Shown: positions 47,887 through 56,357 of the stretch, one piece after another
How positions within the stretch are numbered: the first letter of the stretch is position 1
Layout: every line of letters begins with the position of its first letter
Assembly: GCA_009773515.1 (NCBI GenBank)
Contig: WSXX01000001.1
Coordinates: 186,001 to 250,000, forward strand
Origin: Bacteroidota bacterium
GTDB lineage: Bacteria; Bacteroidota; Bacteroidia; Bacteroidales; Lentimicrobiaceae
DNA: 64,000 nucleotides
Direction of reading: 5' to 3'
Notes under the pieces: generated by a model
What the model was told of the DNA's origin: nothing
Databases searched by the model: none
The model's input: only the letters and a program-made list of their open reading frames with translations
Program-made: the position numbers and the translations under genes

Positions 47887-48591
47887 CTAACCTTTCTGAC
47901 TAATCTCAAACATTCTGTCGTAATCAAGGATATGCAGATGCTTGCATTCTTCTTCTATCAGTTTTTCCTCTTTGAAACGGGTAAGAATTCTGGCAACGCT
48001 TTCAACCGACATACCGGCAATTTCAGCAAGTTCCTTTCTTGACAATTGGAGTGGAAATTTGTGTTGCTTATAGATTCGGTTGGCCAGACATAGCAATACA
48101 TCGGCAAACCTTCCATAAGTCTGTTTTTGAGTCAGGCAGAAAAAGCGGCCGCTGATAATGGAATTATAATCTGCAAGAAATCCAACTACTTTTATTGCAA
48201 ATTCAGGGTTGGATCTTAATAGTTGCTTAAAGGTATTGGAATCGATCAACTGAATGCGTGTATCAATATATGCCTGAGCAGAAAACTGGTAAACAGAATT
48301 TCCTTCTGAAAGTGTAGAAAGTCCTATAATATTGCTTGGAGGCATTATATGGAGCACCAGATTATCATTGGAGTTACTTTCCATATAAATTTTTACAAGC
48401 CCTTCCTGAACAAGCATAATTTGCCCTGCAGGAGTTCCCTGCTTGCAGATGATTTCACCCTTACGGTAATTTACGACCGCCATTTTTGAGTTTATCAGTT
48501 CAAGCTCCTGCGATGACAAGAGCTCGATGCACGATCCTGTGTTACCACCGATTGCACAACTATGCTGCATACTCATCTGTCCTTCTGTCAT
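47887..48591 (-). CDS. Crp/Fnr-family transcriptional regulator
   Basis: A 234-residue regulator: cyclic-nucleotide-binding-like beta roll (residues about 30-145, with RKGEIICKQGTPAGQIMLVQEGLVKIY) and a C-terminal winged helix (LSRKELAEIAGMSVESVARILTRFKEE). The recognition helix VESVAR resembles the VETISR of FNR, consistent with TTGAT half-sites. Three cysteines near the N-terminus (Cys12, Cys21, Cys49) could ligate an iron-sulfur cluster as in FNR, although their spacing differs from E. coli FNR. It diverges from the cytochrome operon, and a perfect FNR box lies between them. A role in oxygen or redox control of that operon, and of itself, is likely. Confidence 0.88.
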   Translation of the reverse strand: MTEGQMSMQHSCAIGGNTGSCIELLSSQELELINSKMAVVNYRKGEIICKQGTPAGQIMLVQEGLVKIYMESNSNDNLVLHIMPPSNIIGLSTLSEGNSVYQFSAQAYIDTRIQLIDSNTFKQLLRSNPEFAIKVVGFLADYNSIISGRFFCLTQKQTYGRFADVLLCLANRIYKQHKFPLQLSRKELAEIAGMSVESVARILTRFKEEKLIEEECKHLHILDYDRMFEISQKG

Positions 48592-48648
48592 TTAGATATA
48601 ATTAATTAGTTAAATAGCAAGCTTTCCTGCAAAGAAACAAAAATTTCC

Positions 48649-48662
48649 TTGATTTACATCAA
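48649..48662. promoter_or_regulatory. Perfect FNR box (TTGAT-N4-ATCAA)
   Basis: TTGATTTACATCAA is an exact, symmetric FNR consensus site in the 183-base gap between the FNR-like regulator and the cytochrome operon. Its centre is 64 bases before the regulator start and 119 bases before the cytochrome start. Confidence 0.75.
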
Positions 48663-48739
48663 AGATTATTCTGTTGAAGAAAGGAGAAAAGCATGTTCAG
48701 GTTGGTGGCTTAATATTCATTTAACAATAAGCTTACTAC

Positions 48740-48747
48740 TACTTTCG
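48740..48747 (+). promoter_or_regulatory. Possible -7 promoter box (TACTTTCG) of the cytochrome operon
   Basis: One base away from TAnnTTTG, 27 bases before the octaheme cytochrome ATG. Confidence 0.4.
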
Positions 48748-48774
48748 CATTGTTAATTTATTCACAATCGGACC

Positions 48775-50370
48775 ATGAACAATATTCTTCAAAAAATCAC
48801 TTCATTTCTGGTCGTGCTGGTGCTGCCTGCACTGGTGATCTTCGCTACAGTGCACTTCGGAAACAAACGTGGAATTCCTGAGAAATTTGAATATCAGAAC
48901 AGAGCTGATATTGAAAAAAAAGTTGATCACGCCGAATTTGAAATTCTTCAGCAGGAATTCAAAAGACCTCAGGATCTGACCGCAGCTTGCCTTTCTTGTC
49001 ACAACAAAAGAGATGACGAATTGATGGCTTCTGCACACTGGAGATGGGAGCGTGAAACCACACTTCCAAATGGCCGCGGAACCGTTACAATAGGAAAGAA
49101 AAACCTGATCAACAACTTCTGCGCTTCAGCCGAAAGCAATAACGGATCGTGTATGCGCTGCCATATTGGTTACGATTGGAAAGATAAAACATTTGATTTT
49201 GAAGACCCAACCAATCTCGATTGCCTGGTTTGCCACGACAATACTAACACTTACAAAAAACGCAAAGGTGGTGCAGGTATGCCAGCTACTGCCGAAAATG
49301 CAACTGCTGAATTTCCGGTTCCCGACTATAATTACGTTGCGCAGAATGTGGGAAAACCACTCAAAGAAAATTGTGGATTTTGTCATTTTCACGGCGGCGG
49401 GGGTAACAATGTAAAACATGGTGACCTTGAAGAAGCTATGCTCAATTGCTCACGTTATGTTGATGTTCACATGGCAAAAGCCGGTCAGGATATGTCGTGC
49501 AACGATTGCCATCTTACCGAAAGGCACAATATTACCGGCAGAGCCTACAGTGTTTCATCTGAAAACAACAACCGCGCTTACTGTGAGTCCTGCCATACAG
49601 ATACGCCGCATAACGATAAGGTAATCGATATGCATAATCACAAAGTTGCCTGCCAGACCTGTCACATACCTGTTTACGCAAAGGTCAACCCAACGGTAAT
49701 GTATTGGGATTGGTCAGTAGCCGGCCGCACAGATGAGAATGGAAATAAAATTACCGAATACGATGCCAACCACAAATACAGCTACTTATCAATTAAGGGA
49801 AAATTTGTTTGGGATGACAATGTTAAACCTGACTATATGTGGTTCAATGGCACTGCTGACCATTTTCTTTATGGTGATACCATAAGCGAAATACCTGTAA
49901 AAATAAACACGCTTATGGGTAGCTACGAAGATCGGGATTCGAAAATATGGCCGGTAAAAATTCATCGCGGAAAGCAACCCTTTGACGTTGAAACCAAAGA
50001 AATTGTAAACGTAAATGTATTTGCCGAGAAACCCGGACAGGGCGCTTTCTGGGAAGATCTCAGATGGGACACTGCCATTCAGATAGGGATGGAATATGTT
50101 GGCAGATATTACAGCGGACAGCATGACTTTGTTTCCACTGAAATGTTCTGGCCCCTCAACCATCAGGTTTCTCCAAAAGAATACACCCTTCAATGCGCTG
50201 ACTGTCACACTCGAAGTGAAGATGGACGACTTGCTAACCTTGCCGGCTTCTATCTTCCCGGGCGCGATTATGCAAAAGGCGTAGATTATACAGGGTTTGC
50301 AATTATTATAATTTCACTTCTGGGAGTAATTGTTCATTCAATAATGAGGATTGTTGCCCGTAAACACTAA
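48775..50370 (+). CDS. Octaheme c-type cytochrome, tetrathionate reductase (OTR) family
   Basis: A 531-residue periplasmic multiheme cytochrome with an uncleaved or cleaved N-terminal membrane segment (residues 8-28) and a C-terminal anchor (about 506-526). Eight CxxCH heme sites are present: Cys72, 126, 150, 200, 242, 270, 293 and 474. The long gap between the seventh and eighth and the overall length match octaheme tetrathionate reductase of Shewanella, which reduces tetrathionate, nitrite and hydroxylamine in vitro. HWRWERET and HNHKVACQTCHIPVYAKVNPTVMYWDWS are family blocks. It heads a six-gene operon with a cytochrome b that can feed it electrons from quinol. Physiological substrate is inferred to be a sulfur oxyanion from the rhodanese neighbours. 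Confidence 0.92.
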   Translation: MNNILQKITSFLVVLVLPALVIFATVHFGNKRGIPEKFEYQNRADIEKKVDHAEFEILQQEFKRPQDLTAACLSCHNKRDDELMASAHWRWERETTLPNGRGTVTIGKKNLINNFCASAESNNGSCMRCHIGYDWKDKTFDFEDPTNLDCLVCHDNTNTYKKRKGGAGMPATAENATAEFPVPDYNYVAQNVGKPLKENCGFCHFHGGGGNNVKHGDLEEAMLNCSRYVDVHMAKAGQDMSCNDCHLTERHNITGRAYSVSSENNNRAYCESCHTDTPHNDKVIDMHNHKVACQTCHIPVYAKVNPTVMYWDWSVAGRTDENGNKITEYDANHKYSYLSIKGKFVWDDNVKPDYMWFNGTADHFLYGDTISEIPVKINTLMGSYEDRDSKIWPVKIHRGKQPFDVETKEIVNVNVFAEKPGQGAFWEDLRWDTAIQIGMEYVGRYYSGQHDFVSTEMFWPLNHQVSPKEYTLQCADCHTRSEDGRLANLAGFYLPGRDYAKGVDYTGFAIIIISLLGVIVHSIMRIVARKH

Positions 50371-50387
50371 CCGAAAAAACAAAGGAA

Positions 50388-51011
50388 ATGGAAAAAATAA
50401 AAGTCTTCTCCCGATTTGAACGCTTCTGGCACTGGACCCAGATGGCTACGGTTATTCTGCTCACAATTACCGGTTTTGAAATCCATGGGAATTACACACT
50501 ATTTGGCTTTGAAGCATCGGTCAGATTGCACAATGCAGCTGCAATCACATTTATAATTCTCGGAATAATTACAATATTCTGGCTTATTGTCACCGGACAA
50601 TACAAAAATTTTATTCCTACAACTGAGAAGTTCAAAGAACAACTGCAGTATTACACTTCAGGAATTTTCAAAGGTGCAGCACATCCTACCAAGAAATCAT
50701 TTGGCAACAAACTGAATCCACTGCAAAGGGTAATTTATCTGGGTCTGTTGATTTTGATATTCCCGGTTCAAACCATCACAGGACTACTTTATATGTATTA
50801 CCACTATCCTCAGAACCCGATTGATGCCAACGGTTTGTGGTTTGCAGTGATAACACACACATTCGGAGCCTTTCTGATGGTTGCCTTTGTAATAGTTCAC
50901 GTTTACATGACCACAACCGGCCACAGACTCTCCACAAACATCAAAGCCATGATCTCCGGGTATGAGGAAGAGCCTGCAGAAGAACATAAAACCGATAATC
51001 AACCCGCTTAA
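50388..51011 (+). CDS. Membrane cytochrome b (thiosulfate reductase/hydrogenase cyt b type)
   Basis: A 207-residue di-heme cytochrome b561-like protein with four membrane helices. FSRFERFWHWTQMATVILLTITGFEIHG opens with the conserved His of helix I, RLHNAAAITF is the next His region, and FAVITHTFGAFLMVAFVIVHVYMTTTGH supplies the last heme ligands. The length is normal for PhsC/cyt b partners. It begins 17 bases after the octaheme cytochrome gene and should pass electrons between the quinone pool and the octaheme protein. Confidence 0.9.
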   Translation: MEKIKVFSRFERFWHWTQMATVILLTITGFEIHGNYTLFGFEASVRLHNAAAITFIILGIITIFWLIVTGQYKNFIPTTEKFKEQLQYYTSGIFKGAAHPTKKSFGNKLNPLQRVIYLGLLILIFPVQTITGLLYMYYHYPQNPIDANGLWFAVITHTFGAFLMVAFVIVHVYMTTTGHRLSTNIKAMISGYEEEPAEEHKTDNQPA

Positions 51012-51022
51012 AACCAACAAAT

Positions 51023-51535
51023 ATGAAAAAAATAGTTTTTGCCATTGCCATCCTTATTGCATTTGCCGCTTGCAGCAAACAGGAAAAATTTGCTTCGGCT
51101 GACGACATGGTGGATCAGGCACTGAAAGAGATAAAATTGATTACAGCCGAAGAACTTCACGGACTGATGAATGGTGAGGAAATTTACACCCTTGTGGATG
51201 TTCGGCAGCCCGAAGAGCATTATCCCGGTTATATTCCCGGCTCAGTAAACATCCCCCGCGGCAGCCTCGAGTTTAATGTTTCTGATTCCACTTTTTGGGA
51301 AGGTGTCGGACTTTATATGCCACTTCCTGATGAAAAAATAGTAGTCTATGATCAGAAAGGAAAACGCGGAATCCTCGCAGCGCAAACCCTTCAGAAACTT
51401 GGATATACAAATGTATTTGCCCTTAAAGAAGGATGGAAAAAATGGGAACTGACTTACCCTGATATTTTTGAAAAAAGCCTTGAAAAACTTGGCGGAGGCG
51501 GCCATGAAACACCAAAATCCGGAGGTGGTTGCTAA
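51023..51535 (+). CDS. Rhodanese-like lipoprotein lacking the catalytic Cys, with C-terminal GGGC
   Basis: A 170-residue lipoprotein (lipobox FAAC, Cys17). The rhodanese domain spans about residues 38-150 (TLVDVRQPEEHYPGYIPGSVNIPRG; FALKEGWKKWELTYP). At the active-site loop, VVYDQKGKRG has Asp110 where active rhodaneses have the persulfide-forming Cys. Instead the only cysteine besides the lipid-bearing one is the last residue: after a flexible GGGGHETPKS segment the protein ends in GGGC (Cys170). A C-terminal thiol on a glycine arm recalls the swinging-arm sulfur carrier SoxY (GGCGG), so a carrier role is an attractive inference. It lies between cytochrome b (11 bases) and a second rhodanese lipoprotein. 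Confidence 0.85.
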   Translation: MKKIVFAIAILIAFAACSKQEKFASADDMVDQALKEIKLITAEELHGLMNGEEIYTLVDVRQPEEHYPGYIPGSVNIPRGSLEFNVSDSTFWEGVGLYMPLPDEKIVVYDQKGKRGILAAQTLQKLGYTNVFALKEGWKKWELTYPDIFEKSLEKLGGGGHETPKSGGGC

Positions 51536-51589
51536 CCCCCTTCTCTAACTTAAATTCAATAAAAACCCACACCTAAAACAAACAACAAC

Positions 51590-52558
51590 ATGAACAAACT
51601 AATGAGATTTTTCCTGATCCTGGCCATTGTACCGGCGCTTGTACTAACAAGTTGCAAAAAGGACGAAACCTTTAATTCTCAAAATGAATTAATAACCTAT
51701 TTAAAAACACAAAATCTAGATATTAATACTATCATTGGTGGTTTTGTGGTTGGAGCACCACCCGCTGACGAAGTTGCTACATTCATCAGTTCAAAATACA
51801 TTATCGACATCCGAAGTGCAGATGAATTTGCTCAGGGACACATTGAAGGTGCTATCCGGGTTGATCTTAAGAACATCCTTATCGAGGCAGAAAAGGCAAA
51901 TAGTAAACCGATTGTTGTAGTTTGTAAAACAGGTCAGACTGCAACTCACGCGGTAGCTTTACTACGTTTGTCAGGATATACAACCGCCACAGCCCTAAAA
52001 TGGGGAATGAGCAGTTGGAATTCAACACTTGATGTTTGGTCAAATAATATTGACAATATTGCCGAAGGTAGTGCAAACTGGACAACTGATGCAGCACCTG
52101 CAGTAAAAAACTTTGGAAGCCCTGTATTTACTACAACCTCTACACAAGCTGAACTTATTCTAAAAGAGAGGGTAGCCCTTGTACTTGAAGAAGGTTTTAT
52201 GACTGTGCAGCCAAGCGATGTTTTAGCAAATCCTTCAAACTATTTTATCAACAACTATTTTAGCGAAACTGATTATGTTGGCTTTGGTCATGTTAAAGGA
52301 GCATATCGCATTAATCCTCTGCTAGTCGTTGAAGGTCAGGTAAATAATCTTGATCCATCAAGTCAAGTTCTGACATATTGTTATACAGGACAAACTTCAG
52401 CTGCAATTACAGCTTACCTGAGGGTAATAGGTTATAATGCAAAAAGCGTAATGTGGGGCATGAATAAATTTTCCAACGCAAACGCTGCATGGGCTGAATC
52501 CCCTAACAAATGGAAATCAACAATGTCAAAGAACCTTCCTATTGTAACCGGTAACTAA
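51590..52558 (+). CDS. Tandem rhodanese lipoprotein with two active-site cysteines
   Basis: A 322-residue lipoprotein (lipobox VLTSC, Cys22) with two rhodanese domains. Domain 1 (about 55-150) has VVVCKTGQTATHA with Cys112; domain 2 (about 200-310) has LTYCYTGQTSAAI with Cys264. Both loops are near identical, CxTGQT, unlike CRxGxR of typical thiosulfate sulfurtransferases. It should bind and pass sulfane sulfur in the periplasm or on the membrane. It sits in the operon between the GGGC rhodanese and the porin. Confidence 0.87.
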   Translation: MNKLMRFFLILAIVPALVLTSCKKDETFNSQNELITYLKTQNLDINTIIGGFVVGAPPADEVATFISSKYIIDIRSADEFAQGHIEGAIRVDLKNILIEAEKANSKPIVVVCKTGQTATHAVALLRLSGYTTATALKWGMSSWNSTLDVWSNNIDNIAEGSANWTTDAAPAVKNFGSPVFTTTSTQAELILKERVALVLEEGFMTVQPSDVLANPSNYFINNYFSETDYVGFGHVKGAYRINPLLVVEGQVNNLDPSSQVLTYCYTGQTSAAITAYLRVIGYNAKSVMWGMNKFSNANAAWAESPNKWKSTMSKNLPIVTGN

Positions 52559-52565
52559 TTCTACT

Positions 52566-53630
52566 TTGATGAAAAAACTGATTTTTGCAATTTTCGCTAT
52601 AGCAGCTCTCAGCACAACCCGGGTCTCAGCTCAGGGTTGTGGGGGAGCCCCTTCGGAAGAAGGAATAAAAATGTTCGGGTTTCTACAATCGCAGTATAAA
52701 TACTCGCTTACTGAACCAACAACCAACACTTTTAGCTTTGAAAGGGCGCGTATCGGAGCTATGGGCAAAATTCCTTATGATTTTTCTTATTACCTCGTTT
52801 TGGAACTTAGTCCTTTTATGTCAGCAAGACCAGAGGATAATAGTGCATATCTTTTAGATGCGTTTATTACTTATGATCGATTTAAAATGGCAAAACTCTC
52901 AATGGGTTCGTTTAAAACTCCGTTTGGGATGGAAACAAATACACCATGCAACGGGCTAATGACAGTTTACCGTTCAAAAGCAACTCTACAAATGGTATCA
53001 CCTTTCCGGGATCTGGGATTAATGCTGTTGGGGGGTGATGAAAATACTCTTGTCCAGTATCAGCTTGGTTTAATGAATGGATCTGGCTTGCTTATCCCAA
53101 CTGGTAAAATTGATGATAAAAACAGGAAAAAAGATGTAGTGGGACGCTTTGTAGTTCACCCTGTAGATTTCTTGAATGTTGGTGGAAGTTTTCGTTATGG
53201 GTATCCTGGTGATAACAATAATGAAGCAACAAGGCTAAGTCTGGGACTTGAATTAAAGGCTAAGTATTCAGGCTTTACTTTGTTGAGTGAATTTATTTAT
53301 GATGAAGGAGCTCTGAATGATGCTGCTGGCGGATGTAGCGGCACTCCGGTTGATATAGGAAAAGTTCGGAAAGGAGCTTACGTTTCAATGGCTTATATGT
53401 CAAAATGGAATGTAGAACCGGTTTTTATGTATGACTTTTTTCATAGCGGATTCATGAATACTTCTTCTGGTCAAGATATTCCCATTGAAGAAAAATACAA
53501 TACTCTGACTTTTGGTTTGAATTATTTCTTTAATGACTGGACTCGATTACAGGTTAACTACTTGTACAGAGCAGAAACTCTGGAACAAAAAAACGACGAA
53601 ATCGTTGTTCAATTACAGGTTAAATTCTAA
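52566..53630 (+). CDS. Outer membrane porin of the OprP/phosphate-selective type
   Basis: A 354-residue exported beta-barrel protein with signal peptide (cut after RVSAQ, residue 23), a short mature N-terminus with QGCGGAPSEE, and regularly spaced aromatic strands closing with EIVVQLQVKF, whose final Phe is typical of outer membrane proteins. RARIGAMGKIPYDFSYYLVLELSP and MGSFKTPFGMETNTP are phosphate-selective porin O/P-like. In this operon it likely admits small sulfur oxyanions such as thiosulfate or tetrathionate, an inference from context. It begins 7 bases after the previous gene. Confidence 0.85.
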   Translation: MMKKLIFAIFAIAALSTTRVSAQGCGGAPSEEGIKMFGFLQSQYKYSLTEPTTNTFSFERARIGAMGKIPYDFSYYLVLELSPFMSARPEDNSAYLLDAFITYDRFKMAKLSMGSFKTPFGMETNTPCNGLMTVYRSKATLQMVSPFRDLGLMLLGGDENTLVQYQLGLMNGSGLLIPTGKIDDKNRKKDVVGRFVVHPVDFLNVGGSFRYGYPGDNNNEATRLSLGLELKAKYSGFTLLSEFIYDEGALNDAAGGCSGTPVDIGKVRKGAYVSMAYMSKWNVEPVFMYDFFHSGFMNTSSGQDIPIEEKYNTLTFGLNYFFNDWTRLQVNYLYRAETLEQKNDEIVVQLQVKF

Positions 53631-53646
53631 TTAAAAACTAAACGAA

Positions 53647-54498
53647 ATGAAAAAACTTTTTTTAACTGCCATCGCTTTTGTTGCTTTGGGCATAGTTGCT
53701 CAGGCTCAGGATCTCATTACTGTTGCCGAACTGAGCTCAAAAATAAAAGATGCAAATTACGTGGTTGTTTCTGCCGAAGTTGAAACTGAATATGCAAAAG
53801 TTCATATCAACGATGCTGTAAACGTTTCCTATAAAAGCCTGGAAAAAACAGGTGGAGTTGAAGGACTCCTGCAGTCTCCTGCCGAACTCGCAAAAATTTT
53901 TGGCGCAAAGGGACTCAGTGAAAAGAAAACCATTGTAGTTTATGACGAAGGAGCCGGTAAATATGCAAGCAGGCTTTATTGGACACTGAAGTACATGGGA
54001 GCTCCTAATGTAAAAATTCTTGATGGTGGTATGGTTGCATGGAAAGCTGGTCGTAAACCGGTTACCAAAAATCCATCTACCGTAAAACCCGCAACTTTTA
54101 CCCCTGCGCTGAACAAAGCTATTTATGCCGACATGAAAGAGGTACAAGCGGCTGCAGGAAATGCAAAAGTTATACTGGTTGATTTACGTGAAGTAGCTGA
54201 ATTCACAGGAAAAGACCCGAAAAACAACAAAGGTCGTATCCCTGGTTCGGTTAATGTAGATCACACAACTTTAAATGCTGCAAACAGTCTTTATAAATCA
54301 AAGGCTGAGCTTGAAAAACTCTTTACAGCAGCCGGTGCAACCAAAGACAAAACCATTATTCTTGTATGTCCTACAGGTGTAAGAGCAGGCAAAGGATACT
54401 TTGCACTGAAATCCATCCTTGGATATCCGAACGTTAAAGTTTATGAAGGTGGCGTTAATGAATGGGCTGCCACAGCTTCAAACAAATTAGACAAATAA
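53647..54498 (+). CDS. Periplasmic thiosulfate/3-mercaptopyruvate-type sulfurtransferase
   Basis: A 283-residue exported two-domain rhodanese of the SseA/TST type. Signal peptide ends near AQAQ (residue 21). The N-terminal domain has VVYDEGAGKYASRLYW, with the usual non-catalytic Asp; the C-terminal domain has ILVCPTGVRAGKG with catalytic Cys241. Here CPTGVRA differs from CGSGVTA of mercaptopyruvate enzymes and CRxGxR of rhodaneses, so substrate preference is open. It is the last gene of the operon and is followed by a terminator. Confidence 0.9.
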   Translation: MKKLFLTAIAFVALGIVAQAQDLITVAELSSKIKDANYVVVSAEVETEYAKVHINDAVNVSYKSLEKTGGVEGLLQSPAELAKIFGAKGLSEKKTIVVYDEGAGKYASRLYWTLKYMGAPNVKILDGGMVAWKAGRKPVTKNPSTVKPATFTPALNKAIYADMKEVQAAAGNAKVILVDLREVAEFTGKDPKNNKGRIPGSVNVDHTTLNAANSLYKSKAELEKLFTAAGATKDKTIILVCPTGVRAGKGYFALKSILGYPNVKVYEGGVNEWAATASNKLDK

Positions 54499-54516
54499 GT
54501 GTAGTTTGTGTTTTTG

Positions 54517-54555
54517 AAACCGGATACTGCTAAAGCGGTGTCCGGTTTTTTTTTT
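54517..54555 (+). terminator. Rho-independent terminator of the sulfur-redox operon
   Basis: AAACCGGATAC pairs with GTGTCCGGTTT (one mismatch) around about nine bases and runs into a long T-tract. Confidence 0.88.
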
Positions 54556-55013: not shown

Positions 55014-56357
55014 ATGAGTAAACAGGACAACAGCTACAAAGTGGGAATGTCGGTTATTGGCTCTATCTTTTTTATCTTTGGTTTCGCCACAACCTTCATC
55101 ATTACCTTAAGTGCTAAAGTAAAGGACATTTTTGAGCTCAGTGAATTTGAAGCTCAAATGCTGAACTTTGCTTTCTTTATCACTTATGCAATACTATCAA
55201 TTCCTATTGGATTATACATTAAGAAAATAGGATACAAGCGGGCACTGATTATCGGATTACTACTCATGGCTGCCGGAGGTTTACTATTTTATCCTTCGTC
55301 AAGCATTCCTTCGTTTCCTTTGTTTCTTGTTTCCACCTTTATTCTTGCTGCAGGAGTTGTATTCCTGCAAACAGCAGCCAATCCTTATGTTACAGCATTA
55401 GGCCCCGAAGTAACTGCTTCAAGCCGTTTAAACCTGACTCAGGCGTTGAACTCTATAGCTACTATGGTTGCCCCATGGATTATTGCTGTTTTTATCTTTA
55501 CAGGAGCATCAGAAATGCTTGACGCCGCTGGAAAAGCAGAAACAGTGCAGATTCCGTTTGTCATTATGAGTGTGCTTATTGTCATTATTGCACTTCTCAT
55601 TATGACCATCAAACTTCCTGAAATTGCCCAAACCGCAACGATTTCAAAAAAGAGTGTATGGAAATACCCCCATGTACTGCTGGGAGCTGTAGCTATTTTC
55701 TTTTATGTAGGTGCTGAAGTTGGAAACGGAAGTCTTATCATCAGCTATCTGAAAACCACCAACGGCATGGACCCTGAAATGGCCTCGACTTATGCAGCCA
55801 TTTATTGGGGAGGAGCTATGGTTGGCCGATTCTTCGGATCTTTTATGTTTTCAGGCATCAGCATGTCTAAAAAAATAACCTACGCCATTCCTGTTTTGAT
55901 TCTGGCACTGGTCTCAGGGTCATTCGTTACCGGCTGGAACTGGAATATCGGCGGTATCTTTCTGGGAATTTCGGTTATTAACTTCCTGATTATGCAGATC
56001 GGAACCGGCAAAGCTGCACGTACCCTTGCAGTTTTTGCATTGGTAGCGGCATTACTCGATATTATTACCAGCTTTGGCACTGGTCAGGTGGCATTATGGA
56101 CTGTTATTTCAATCGGATTGTTCAATTCGATTATGTTCCCGAATATTTTCACCCTTGCTGTGAAAGACCTTGATTCAGGTGAGTTAAGCACTGCTTCAGG
56201 CATCATAAACACCTTAATTTTTGGTGGAGCGATTATTCCTCCGATTATGGGAAGCGTTGCCGACAATTTCGGTTACACCTGGGCCTTCATCGTACCGGCT
56301 CTTTGTTACTTATACATCTTCTATTACGCGGTTAAAGGCGCTCACATCAGAAGGTAA
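55014..56357 (+). CDS. FucP-like MFS sugar transporter
   Basis: A 447-residue major facilitator with 12 membrane segments, of the FucP/glucose-galactose branch. IGSIFFIFGFATTFIITLSAKVKDIFELSEFEAQ starts the protein, IGLYIKKIGYKRALIIG is the loop 2-3 motif, and VFLQTAANPYVTALGPE with SSRLNLTQALNSIATMVAP is the signature of this subfamily. It imports a sugar or disaccharide across the cytoplasmic membrane by proton symport. The glycoside hydrolase gene follows at 14 bases, so it should take up its products. Confidence 0.9.
   Translation: MSKQDNSYKVGMSVIGSIFFIFGFATTFIITLSAKVKDIFELSEFEAQMLNFAFFITYAILSIPIGLYIKKIGYKRALIIGLLLMAAGGLLFYPSSSIPSFPLFLVSTFILAAGVVFLQTAANPYVTALGPEVTASSRLNLTQALNSIATMVAPWIIAVFIFTGASEMLDAAGKAETVQIPFVIMSVLIVIIALLIMTIKLPEIAQTATISKKSVWKYPHVLLGAVAIFFYVGAEVGNGSLIISYLKTTNGMDPEMASTYAAIYWGGAMVGRFFGSFMFSGISMSKKITYAIPVLILALVSGSFVTGWNWNIGGIFLGISVINFLIMQIGTGKAARTLAVFALVAALLDIITSFGTGQVALWTVISIGLFNSIMFPNIFTLAVKDLDSGELSTASGIINTLIFGGAIIPPIMGSVADNFGYTWAFIVPALCYLYIFYYAVKGAHIRR

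Follow-up and report, generated by a model that had tools for sequence, protein, structure and literature searches.

The 64,000-nucleotide stretch analysed here (the window: positions 186,001 to 250,000 of contig WSXX01000001.1, assembly GCA_009773515.1, from a Bacteroidota bacterium of the Lentimicrobiaceae) contains an operon built around an octaheme c-type cytochrome of the octaheme tetrathionate reductase family (OTR). On balance, we favour the view that this operon encodes a quinol-fed periplasmic reductase of sulfur compounds, in which the OTR would act on sulfur brought to it by a dedicated carrier protein, namely a rhodanese-fold lipoprotein that ends in a glycine-rich arm with a terminal cysteine. 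More tentatively, and at somewhat less than even probability, we propose that this protein belongs to a widespread class of carriers, in which the working cysteine of a rhodanese sits at the tip of a GGC arm while the loop cysteine is often lost, and which feed interchangeable reductases, either OTR or PhsA-like molybdoenzymes. The substrate of OTR would then be protein-bound sulfur and not free tetrathionate. The gene set described in an earlier sequence-only reading (octaheme cytochrome, cytochrome b, a GGGC-ending and a tandem rhodanese, porin, sulfurtransferase and terminator) is confirmed by family scans and by the gaps between the genes.

The proposed carrier of the window has two cysteines, C17 in the lipobox and C170, its last residue; the catalytic-loop cysteine of rhodaneses is absent, with an aspartate instead. 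In its structural model, residues 159–170 have a pLDDT below 50 and the core blocks lie at 90–98, which is consistent with the tail being a flexible arm. A fold search of the PDB with this model placed rhodanese-superfamily entries on top, and SoxY, the carrier of the Sox pathway, was not found among the top 50 of the 607 rows. Homology of the carrier to SoxY was rejected, the model being a rhodanese. A search of the genome for PF13501 found nothing, and neither did the same search in any control genome, so that absence is not shown by it. The invariant GGC in our alignments of carriers (A2, 19 proteins) and fusions (A3, 34 of 38) is not evidence for the tail, because their members were drawn from proteins already having it; both structural models were built on these alignments.

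We therefore rely on counts from OTR neighbourhoods, which form a sample that is not random. Matches above the TIGR04315 cut-off occurred in 15 of 60 genomes of relatives, in 55 of the 395 genomes of a phylum sample and in none of 14 control genomes, and the best 80 of 579 named contigs were a further source. All 20 matches from the relatives, 54 of the 59 from the phylum sample and two distant ones were fetched, the window's own genome being treated apart. Genes were called by a simple longest-open-reading-frame (ORF) choice, and domains were labelled with profiles that had been built up from the proteins of the operon itself. After removal of near-copies, 131 OTR loci remained, 108 of them with cytochrome b, and a rhodanese with a GGC tail, or nearly so, lay downstream in 88 of these 108 (68 with YeeE, 13 with porin and 7 with neither). 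In three further OTR loci, YeeE and a tailed rhodanese are present but no cytochrome b was called, and a looser rule, allowing up to seven genes, found a tailed rhodanese in 99 of 126 rows. As a background, the tail was present in 3 of 1906 non-rhodanese ORFs of at least 100 amino acids in the same stretches, and two of these three (L067 and L167) occupy the position of a third carrier and resemble further carriers. Given these figures, the GGC tail is the key feature that the sequence-only reading overlooked.

The layout of the window (divergent regulator, OTR, cytochrome b, tailed rhodanese, tandem rhodanese, porin, MST-like protein) recurs in loci titled Bacteroidales, Marinilabiliaceae, Carboxylicivirga, Saccharicrinis and Labilibaculum, and in one Cytophagales locus. 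The gene set is thus not a chance grouping, since operons of the same order are found in other Bacteroidota loci. In a commoner layout, OTR and cytochrome b are followed by one YeeE half and by another that carries a fused rhodanese. Cultured hosts of this YeeE type include Mariniphaga anaerophila DSM 26910 and Carboxylicivirga linearis FB218. The earlier expectation that homologous operons would keep rhodanese genes came out favourably in this sample, with some OTR–cytochrome b operons that do lack a rhodanese.

The distribution of the tail differs between classes of rhodanese. Among single-domain rhodaneses adjoining OTR, an unselected count gave a GGC-type tail in 44 of 47; the other three end in EAGC (L162), are cut by a contig end (L156) or lie beside a distant cytochrome (L134). 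Those of YeeE-type operons are all tailed (19/19) and none has the catalytic cysteine. Operons without YeeE have the tail in 25 of 28, and eight of these 25, the window's included, have lost the catalytic cysteine (seven of the eight are from the window's genus). Nearly every YeeE–rhodanese fusion (81/82, or 73/74 after removal of redundancy, the exception being L207) has a terminus in which GG is followed, directly or after one residue, by C and at most two more residues, and the catalytic position holds A in 44, S in 23, G in 13 and D in 2 of them, with cysteine in none of the 82. When non-redundant proteins not cut by a contig end are compared, the tail is present in those 73 of 74 fusions, in 39 of 41 single-domain and in 18 of 46 two-domain rhodaneses; in porin-type operons it is carried by the single-domain rhodanese only.

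The octaheme cytochrome scores 564.5 bits against TIGR04315 (cut-off 375), and its best PDB match is 1sp3 (E 1e-121). Its eight CxxCH motifs start at residues 72, 126, 150, 200, 242, 270, 293 and 474, and its hydrophobic stretches span residues 8–26 and 510–528. All eight heme motifs are kept across 129 aligned OTR rows (L134 and L135 were excluded from this count), except that the histidine of the first is missing in one row. Residues C116 and K214 are conserved in 129/129 rows. A manual count along the pairwise alignment equates them with residues 64 and 153 of 1sp3; we take residue 153 to be the lysine ligand of the active-site heme and residue 64 to be a neighbouring cysteine. According to PMC12285233, in the passage concerned, the active-site heme of the Shewanella OTR is lysine-ligated although all its motifs are CXXCH. 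A tree of 126 OTR rows (L134, L135, L174, L183 and L207 left out) places the window in a 21-row clade composed mainly of window-layout and minimal operons (SH-aLRT 96), beside a 77-row clade of mainly YeeE-type operons (SH-aLRT 95); the layout labels were assigned by proximity, and a few, including L149 and L163, are blurred by neighbouring clusters. The window's own genome has a second OTR, 51% identical to the first. Its operon also encodes cytochrome b, a YeeE half and three rhodanese proteins (a tandem one, one fused to a second YeeE half, and one more), each of which terminates in GGC.

The membrane cytochrome b is a predicted quinol dehydrogenase and the likely quinol link to OTR, as had been suggested from sequence. 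Besides PF01292, its best NCBIfam match is PRK15006, a thiosulfate reductase cytochrome b, with 87.9 bits (below the cut-off of 204). Elsewhere, Pfam recognises two PAS domains fused to the cytochrome b (L190:3038-4372 and L219:10480-11805), as if the quinol-linked subunit also sensed something, and long cytochrome b genes occur in the OTR loci L218, L227 and L060; no rhodanese carrier was seen in any of these five loci.

We propose the following scenario. The tandem-rhodanese lipoprotein, the porin and the MST-like protein would collect sulfane sulfur, from polysulfide, thiosulfate or tetrathionate for example, and pass it inward. The single-domain rhodanese-fold lipoprotein would take this sulfur on the terminal cysteine of its arm, predicted to be flexible, and the arm would enter the active site of OTR near the lysine-ligated heme and the invariant cysteine. 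Cytochrome b would hand quinol electrons to OTR, which would reduce the carried sulfur. The carrier would then work like the swinging arm of SoxY, on an unrelated fold. In most other OTR–cytochrome b loci sampled, a tail of the same kind is found on a rhodanese domain that lacks the catalytic cysteine and is joined to one half of the sulfur transporter YeeE.

The direction of this pathway is probably reductive, and the best evidence comes from loci of another kind. Outside the OTR set, 6 of the 29 rhodaneses of the window's own and related genomes are tailed, and all six, from four loci (L259, L260, L262 and L271), belong to gene clusters that also encode a PhsA-like molybdoenzyme, a 4Fe-4S protein, NrfD and YeeE halves. 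Among the models for the molybdoenzyme of L259, on contig C44 of the window's genome, PhsA scores best, with 455 bits, which stays under its cut-off of 694; the locus also matched NrfD and sulfur-transport families. The Pfam and NCBIfam scan concerned L259, and the other PhsA-type loci were matched to it by BLAST. The full set of YeeE and PhsA-like, FeS and NrfD genes is present in seven of nine OTR-less loci with a tailed rhodanese, four of the seven (L259, L260, L262 and L271) having been fetched with their tails already known and three (L267, L272 and L276) not; three of the seven (L259, L271 and L276) are from the window's genus. The remaining two have YeeE only (L273) or a window-type module without OTR (L261). 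No molybdopterin catalytic subunit was found in the window's operon by a Pfam scan of its proteins. The partners of the tail thus point to a reductive sulfur role, because OTR and a molybdoenzyme nearest to thiosulfate reductase share them.

The same parts could also run in reverse, with OTR oxidising carrier-bound sulfane sulfur and cytochrome b feeding the quinone pool, as a heme counterpart of SoxCD. Indeed, SoxY swinging arms serve oxidation, and multiheme enzymes are able to run both ways. However, the hosts of the window layout are mostly anaerobes, the regulator–OTR regions carry CRP/FNR-type sites, and the tailed rhodanese and YeeE also accompany the PhsA-like molybdoenzyme, for which a thiosulfate reductase is the nearest model, below cut-off. 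In support of oxidation, the relevant passage of PMC11237559 places otr beside soxY and soxZ in sulfur-oxidising symbionts. Among the alternatives, we take this one the most seriously, and still consider it unlikely.

Another possibility is that the arm serves sulfur trafficking, the tailed rhodaneses delivering sulfane sulfur or thiosulfate to acceptors such as YeeE for assimilation while OTR is merely co-regulated. The majority of tailed rhodaneses are indeed YeeE fusions or YeeE neighbours, also where OTR is lacking. Against this, 13 porin-type and 7 further operons, in which no YeeE was called, pair OTR and cytochrome b with a tailed rhodanese; L149 and L163, however, have YeeE genes clustered a short distance upstream. 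Moreover, the fusions have a positively charged loop ahead of one further hydrophobic helix, and by the positive-inside rule this places the fused rhodanese in the periplasm, where OTR is expected; this location is a predicted topology, and the fusion model (mean pLDDT 72.9) is weaker than that of the carrier. We therefore regard trafficking, too, as improbable. In L149, YeeE halves and a GGCS-tailed rhodanese lie directly upstream of the regulator of a window-type OTR operon, an arrangement which suggests that the modules recombine.

A third explanation holds that OTR acts on nitrite or hydroxylamine and that the rhodaneses shield the enzyme or the cell from sulfide. A study of the Shewanella OTR reportedly dealt with nitrite and hydroxylamine. 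The in vitro reduction of nitrite to ammonium by octaheme cytochromes is cited in a passage of PMC5276818. A nitrite-only role is less likely, since an NrfA-family gene (586.9 bits) is present separately in the genome, and the labelled neighbours kept with OTR and cytochrome b are mostly sulfur genes. The sulfur rather than nitrogen context advanced in the sequence-only reading is accordingly upheld by the frequency of tailed rhodaneses at OTR–cytochrome b loci and by the YeeE or PhsA-like clusters beside such proteins. We hold this third explanation to be quite improbable.

Several points nevertheless weigh against a quinol-fed reductase served by an arm-bearing carrier, or limit its reach. 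Menaquinol is not a strong enough reductant for polysulfide or thiosulfate unless membrane energy is supplied. By the strict count, 20 of the 108 OTR–cytochrome b loci have no GGC-tailed rhodanese downstream. Six of these 20 carry a flag for truncation at a contig end, L099 and L216 have a tailed fusion past a missed gene, and L061 and L225 have a tailed tandem rhodanese just upstream; the others, some with a PAS-fused cytochrome b, showed no tailed rhodanese. The count itself is slightly flattered, as the five unfetched matches of the phylum sample all belong to family f60, whose fetched members are without rhodanese. A Photobacterium plasmid has OTR and cytochrome b without rhodanese, on a Paracoccus plasmid no rhodanese or YeeE was labelled next to OTR, and a group of short OTRs (10 rows, 455–472 amino acids) has neither partner. 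The carrier is thus not needed for OTR chemistry in general, because OTR occurs without it. Nor is the arm usually the only thiol in operons without YeeE, since 17 of their 25 tailed single-domain rhodaneses retain the catalytic cysteine, and elsewhere the tail may serve YeeE rather than a reductase. Finally, PMC11129491 places Lentimicrobiales isolates among the fermenters, and the passage on them reports no sulfur respiration; our literature search gave no direct evidence either way on sulfur respiration in Lentimicrobium or related isolates.

Beyond Bacteroidota, the evidence comes from single loci, one each from Acidobacteriota (L173), Chthonomonadia (L204) and LCP-89 (L214), and from the plasmids L257 and L258. 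The first three have the YeeE-type operon with GGC tails; mis-binning is possible, because all three records are titled as metagenome-assembled genomes. On the Paracoccus ferrooxidans plasmid (L257:412-9527), the OTR gene directly follows a run of suf-type genes that ends in a cysteine desulfurase.

The features of the operon and of the related PhsA-like cluster are collected in Table 1.

Table 1. Features of the OTR operon region (window positions) and of the PhsA-like cluster of the same genome (positions in locus L259)
Feature	Coordinates	Strand	Remarks
CRP/FNR-family regulator	47887..48591	-	PF00027 and PF13545 above cut-off; divergent from the operon
Predicted FNR/CRP-type operator TTGATTTACATCAA (TTGATN4ATCAA)	48649..48662	+	112 bases 5' of the OTR start
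Octaheme c-type cytochrome, OTR family, 531 aa	48775..50370	+	TIGR04315; hydrophobic helix at each end
Membrane cytochrome b (b561/Ni_hydr_CYTB)	50388..51011	+	PF01292, 93.5 bits
Rhodanese-fold lipoprotein, proposed swinging-arm sulfur carrier	51023..51535	+	SGGGC end; rhodanese family match; catalytic Cys replaced by Asp
Tandem rhodanese lipoprotein	51590..52558	+	Two catalytic cysteines (C, C), no GGC tail; CKKDETF after lipobox
Outer-membrane porin, phosphate-selective O/P type, ExtI-like	52569..53630	+	PF07396, 55.5 bits
Two-domain MST-like rhodanese	53647..54498	+	PF00581, 131.2 bits; catalytic residues D (first domain) and C (second)
Intrinsic terminator	54516..54549	+	15-pair stem, then T run
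PhsA-like molybdoenzyme cluster, own genome (contig C44)	L259:3253-8856		PhsA-like molybdoenzyme, 4Fe-4S, NrfD, two YeeE halves, GGCS-tailed rhodanese

The operon proper spans 48775-54498 and comprises six genes on the same strand, separated by 17, 11, 54, 10 and 16 bases; the start at 47887 given earlier belongs to the divergent regulator. The predicted operator is the sole exact match to TTGATN4ATCAA in the window (0.29 expected). A regulator divergent from OTR was present in 24 distinct intergenic regions that we examined, and TTGAN6TCAA lies 106–112 bases 5' of OTR in 12 of them, with shuffles predicting 0.17 and other divergent regions having the motif in 4 of 178. All seven such regions from the window's genus contain it, as do 5 of the 17 from elsewhere. 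These counts support a predicted FNR/CRP-type operator. The FNR control assumed in the sequence-only reading is therefore retained as control of the CRP/FNR type; oxygen sensing through an iron-sulfur cluster is not established, because the N-terminal cysteines of the regulator vary. Terminator-like sites in the region, found by the scan that identified the one listed here, number 3 against 5.0 in shuffles (promoter-like sites, 14 against 14.1), and since they are no commoner than in shuffles, the weight of this terminator lies in its strength and position.

The three remaining proteins would form the supply part of the proposed relay. An acidic pair at +2 to +6 past the lipobox cysteine is present in 20 of 31 untailed tandem-rhodanese lipoproteins, compared with 0 of 25 single-domain carriers. 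Acidic residues after the lipobox are a surface-export signal in Bacteroidota, and judged by this signal the tandem rhodanese may lie on the outer surface and the carrier inside. For the porin, the ATG at 52569 is a likelier start than the TTG at 52566 given by the ORF tool, and QGC follows the likely signal peptide, with its cleavage site placed by eye, in 23/23 distinct porins labelled in the fetched loci. The MST-like rhodanese is probably secreted; it scores 122.2 bits against PRK11493 (cut-off 250). The block of tandem rhodanese, porin and MST-like protein also stands behind a CRP gene without OTR (L263, L264 and L266). The sulfur relay by lipoproteins put forward from sequence holds in part: the rhodaneses are not equivalent, as in operons like the window's the tail is on the single-domain one and the block with tandem rhodanese can exist on its own. 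In three loci (L269, L270 and L278), a cytochrome of 454–459 amino acids with ten CxxCH motifs adjoins a tandem rhodanese lipoprotein, with a CRP gene divergent in L269 and L270; this cytochrome may stand in for OTR in relatives.

The porin and the MST-like protein also raise the question of an Ext-type pathway of selenite or tellurite reduction, as the sole NCBIfam match of the porin is ExtI and the second-best of the MST-like protein is ExtH, and an extI mutant is described in PMC5877670, in the passage concerned, as having decreased selenite and tellurite reduction; both matches fall under their cut-offs (51.8 bits against 150 for ExtI, 78.5 against 200 for ExtH), extKLMNOPQS-like partners are absent among the seven proteins scanned, and membership of the Ext family of systems, which we judge very improbable, was rejected on these grounds. 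Further downstream, a putative glucoamylase (PF10091; 56372-58795) with a Por secretion tail adjoins an MFS transporter (55014-56357).

The literature search, which reached subscription journals in small part, found no description of GGC-tailed rhodaneses, of their link to OTR or of this gene set. The earlier statement that no characterised system has this gene set therefore holds for the literature searched, with the reservation that the association of an octaheme cytochrome with rhodaneses is not in itself new, because such clustered genes are reported in the part of PMC10376724 that deals with Dethiobacter. What appears to be new is the tail, together with the loss of the catalytic cysteine and the swap of reductases. 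Genome surveys (PMC9040765, PMC7887784 and PMC8359478, in the passages on OTR) interpret OTR genes to mean that tetrathionate (or nitrite) can be reduced; if the carrier arm feeds OTR, the in vivo substrate becomes directly testable and such annotations in Bacteroidota would need revision.

Compared with the Shewanella oneidensis OTR (TIGR04315, 1sp3), the system described here has helices at both ends of the cytochrome, a linked cytochrome b and a rhodanese-fold protein with a terminal cysteine. The octaheme (SirA/Otr-like) clusters of Dethiobacter also bring together an octaheme gene and rhodanese-domain genes, and thiosulfate reduction is proposed there; those octahemes are distant, at about 20–23% identity to Otr or SirA, and the passages on them in PMC10376724 mention no C-terminal tail. 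In Desulfurivibrio dismutans, as far as the relevant sections of PMC12142623 go, rhodanese-domain sulfurtransferases are likewise associated with quinone-linked sulfur reductases of the Psr/Phs type, and a porin gene is found with periplasmic sulfurtransferases and YeeE, separate from the Psr operon. The enzyme there is a molybdoenzyme instead of an octaheme cytochrome, and here the porin lies inside the operon. The ext cluster of Geobacter (extHIJKLMNOPQS), as presented in the corresponding part of PMC5877670, similarly groups a rhodanese (ExtH), a porin (ExtI) and multiheme and b-type cytochromes, whereas the matches here are below cut-off, OTR replaces ExtKL/M/N/S and no Rieske protein is among the operon genes. 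A printed parallel to the pairing of OTR and carrier is provided, in the passage concerned, by lucinid symbionts, in which otr stands next to divergent soxY and soxZ (PMC11237559). Like SoxY in SoxYZ, the carrier is exported and has a glycine-rich C-terminal arm that ends in the cysteine proposed to carry sulfur; unlike SoxY, it has a rhodanese fold, a heme enzyme as partner and probably a reductive direction. If this proposal is true, the swinging-arm principle of Sox gains a second, unrelated scaffold in a probably reductive pathway.

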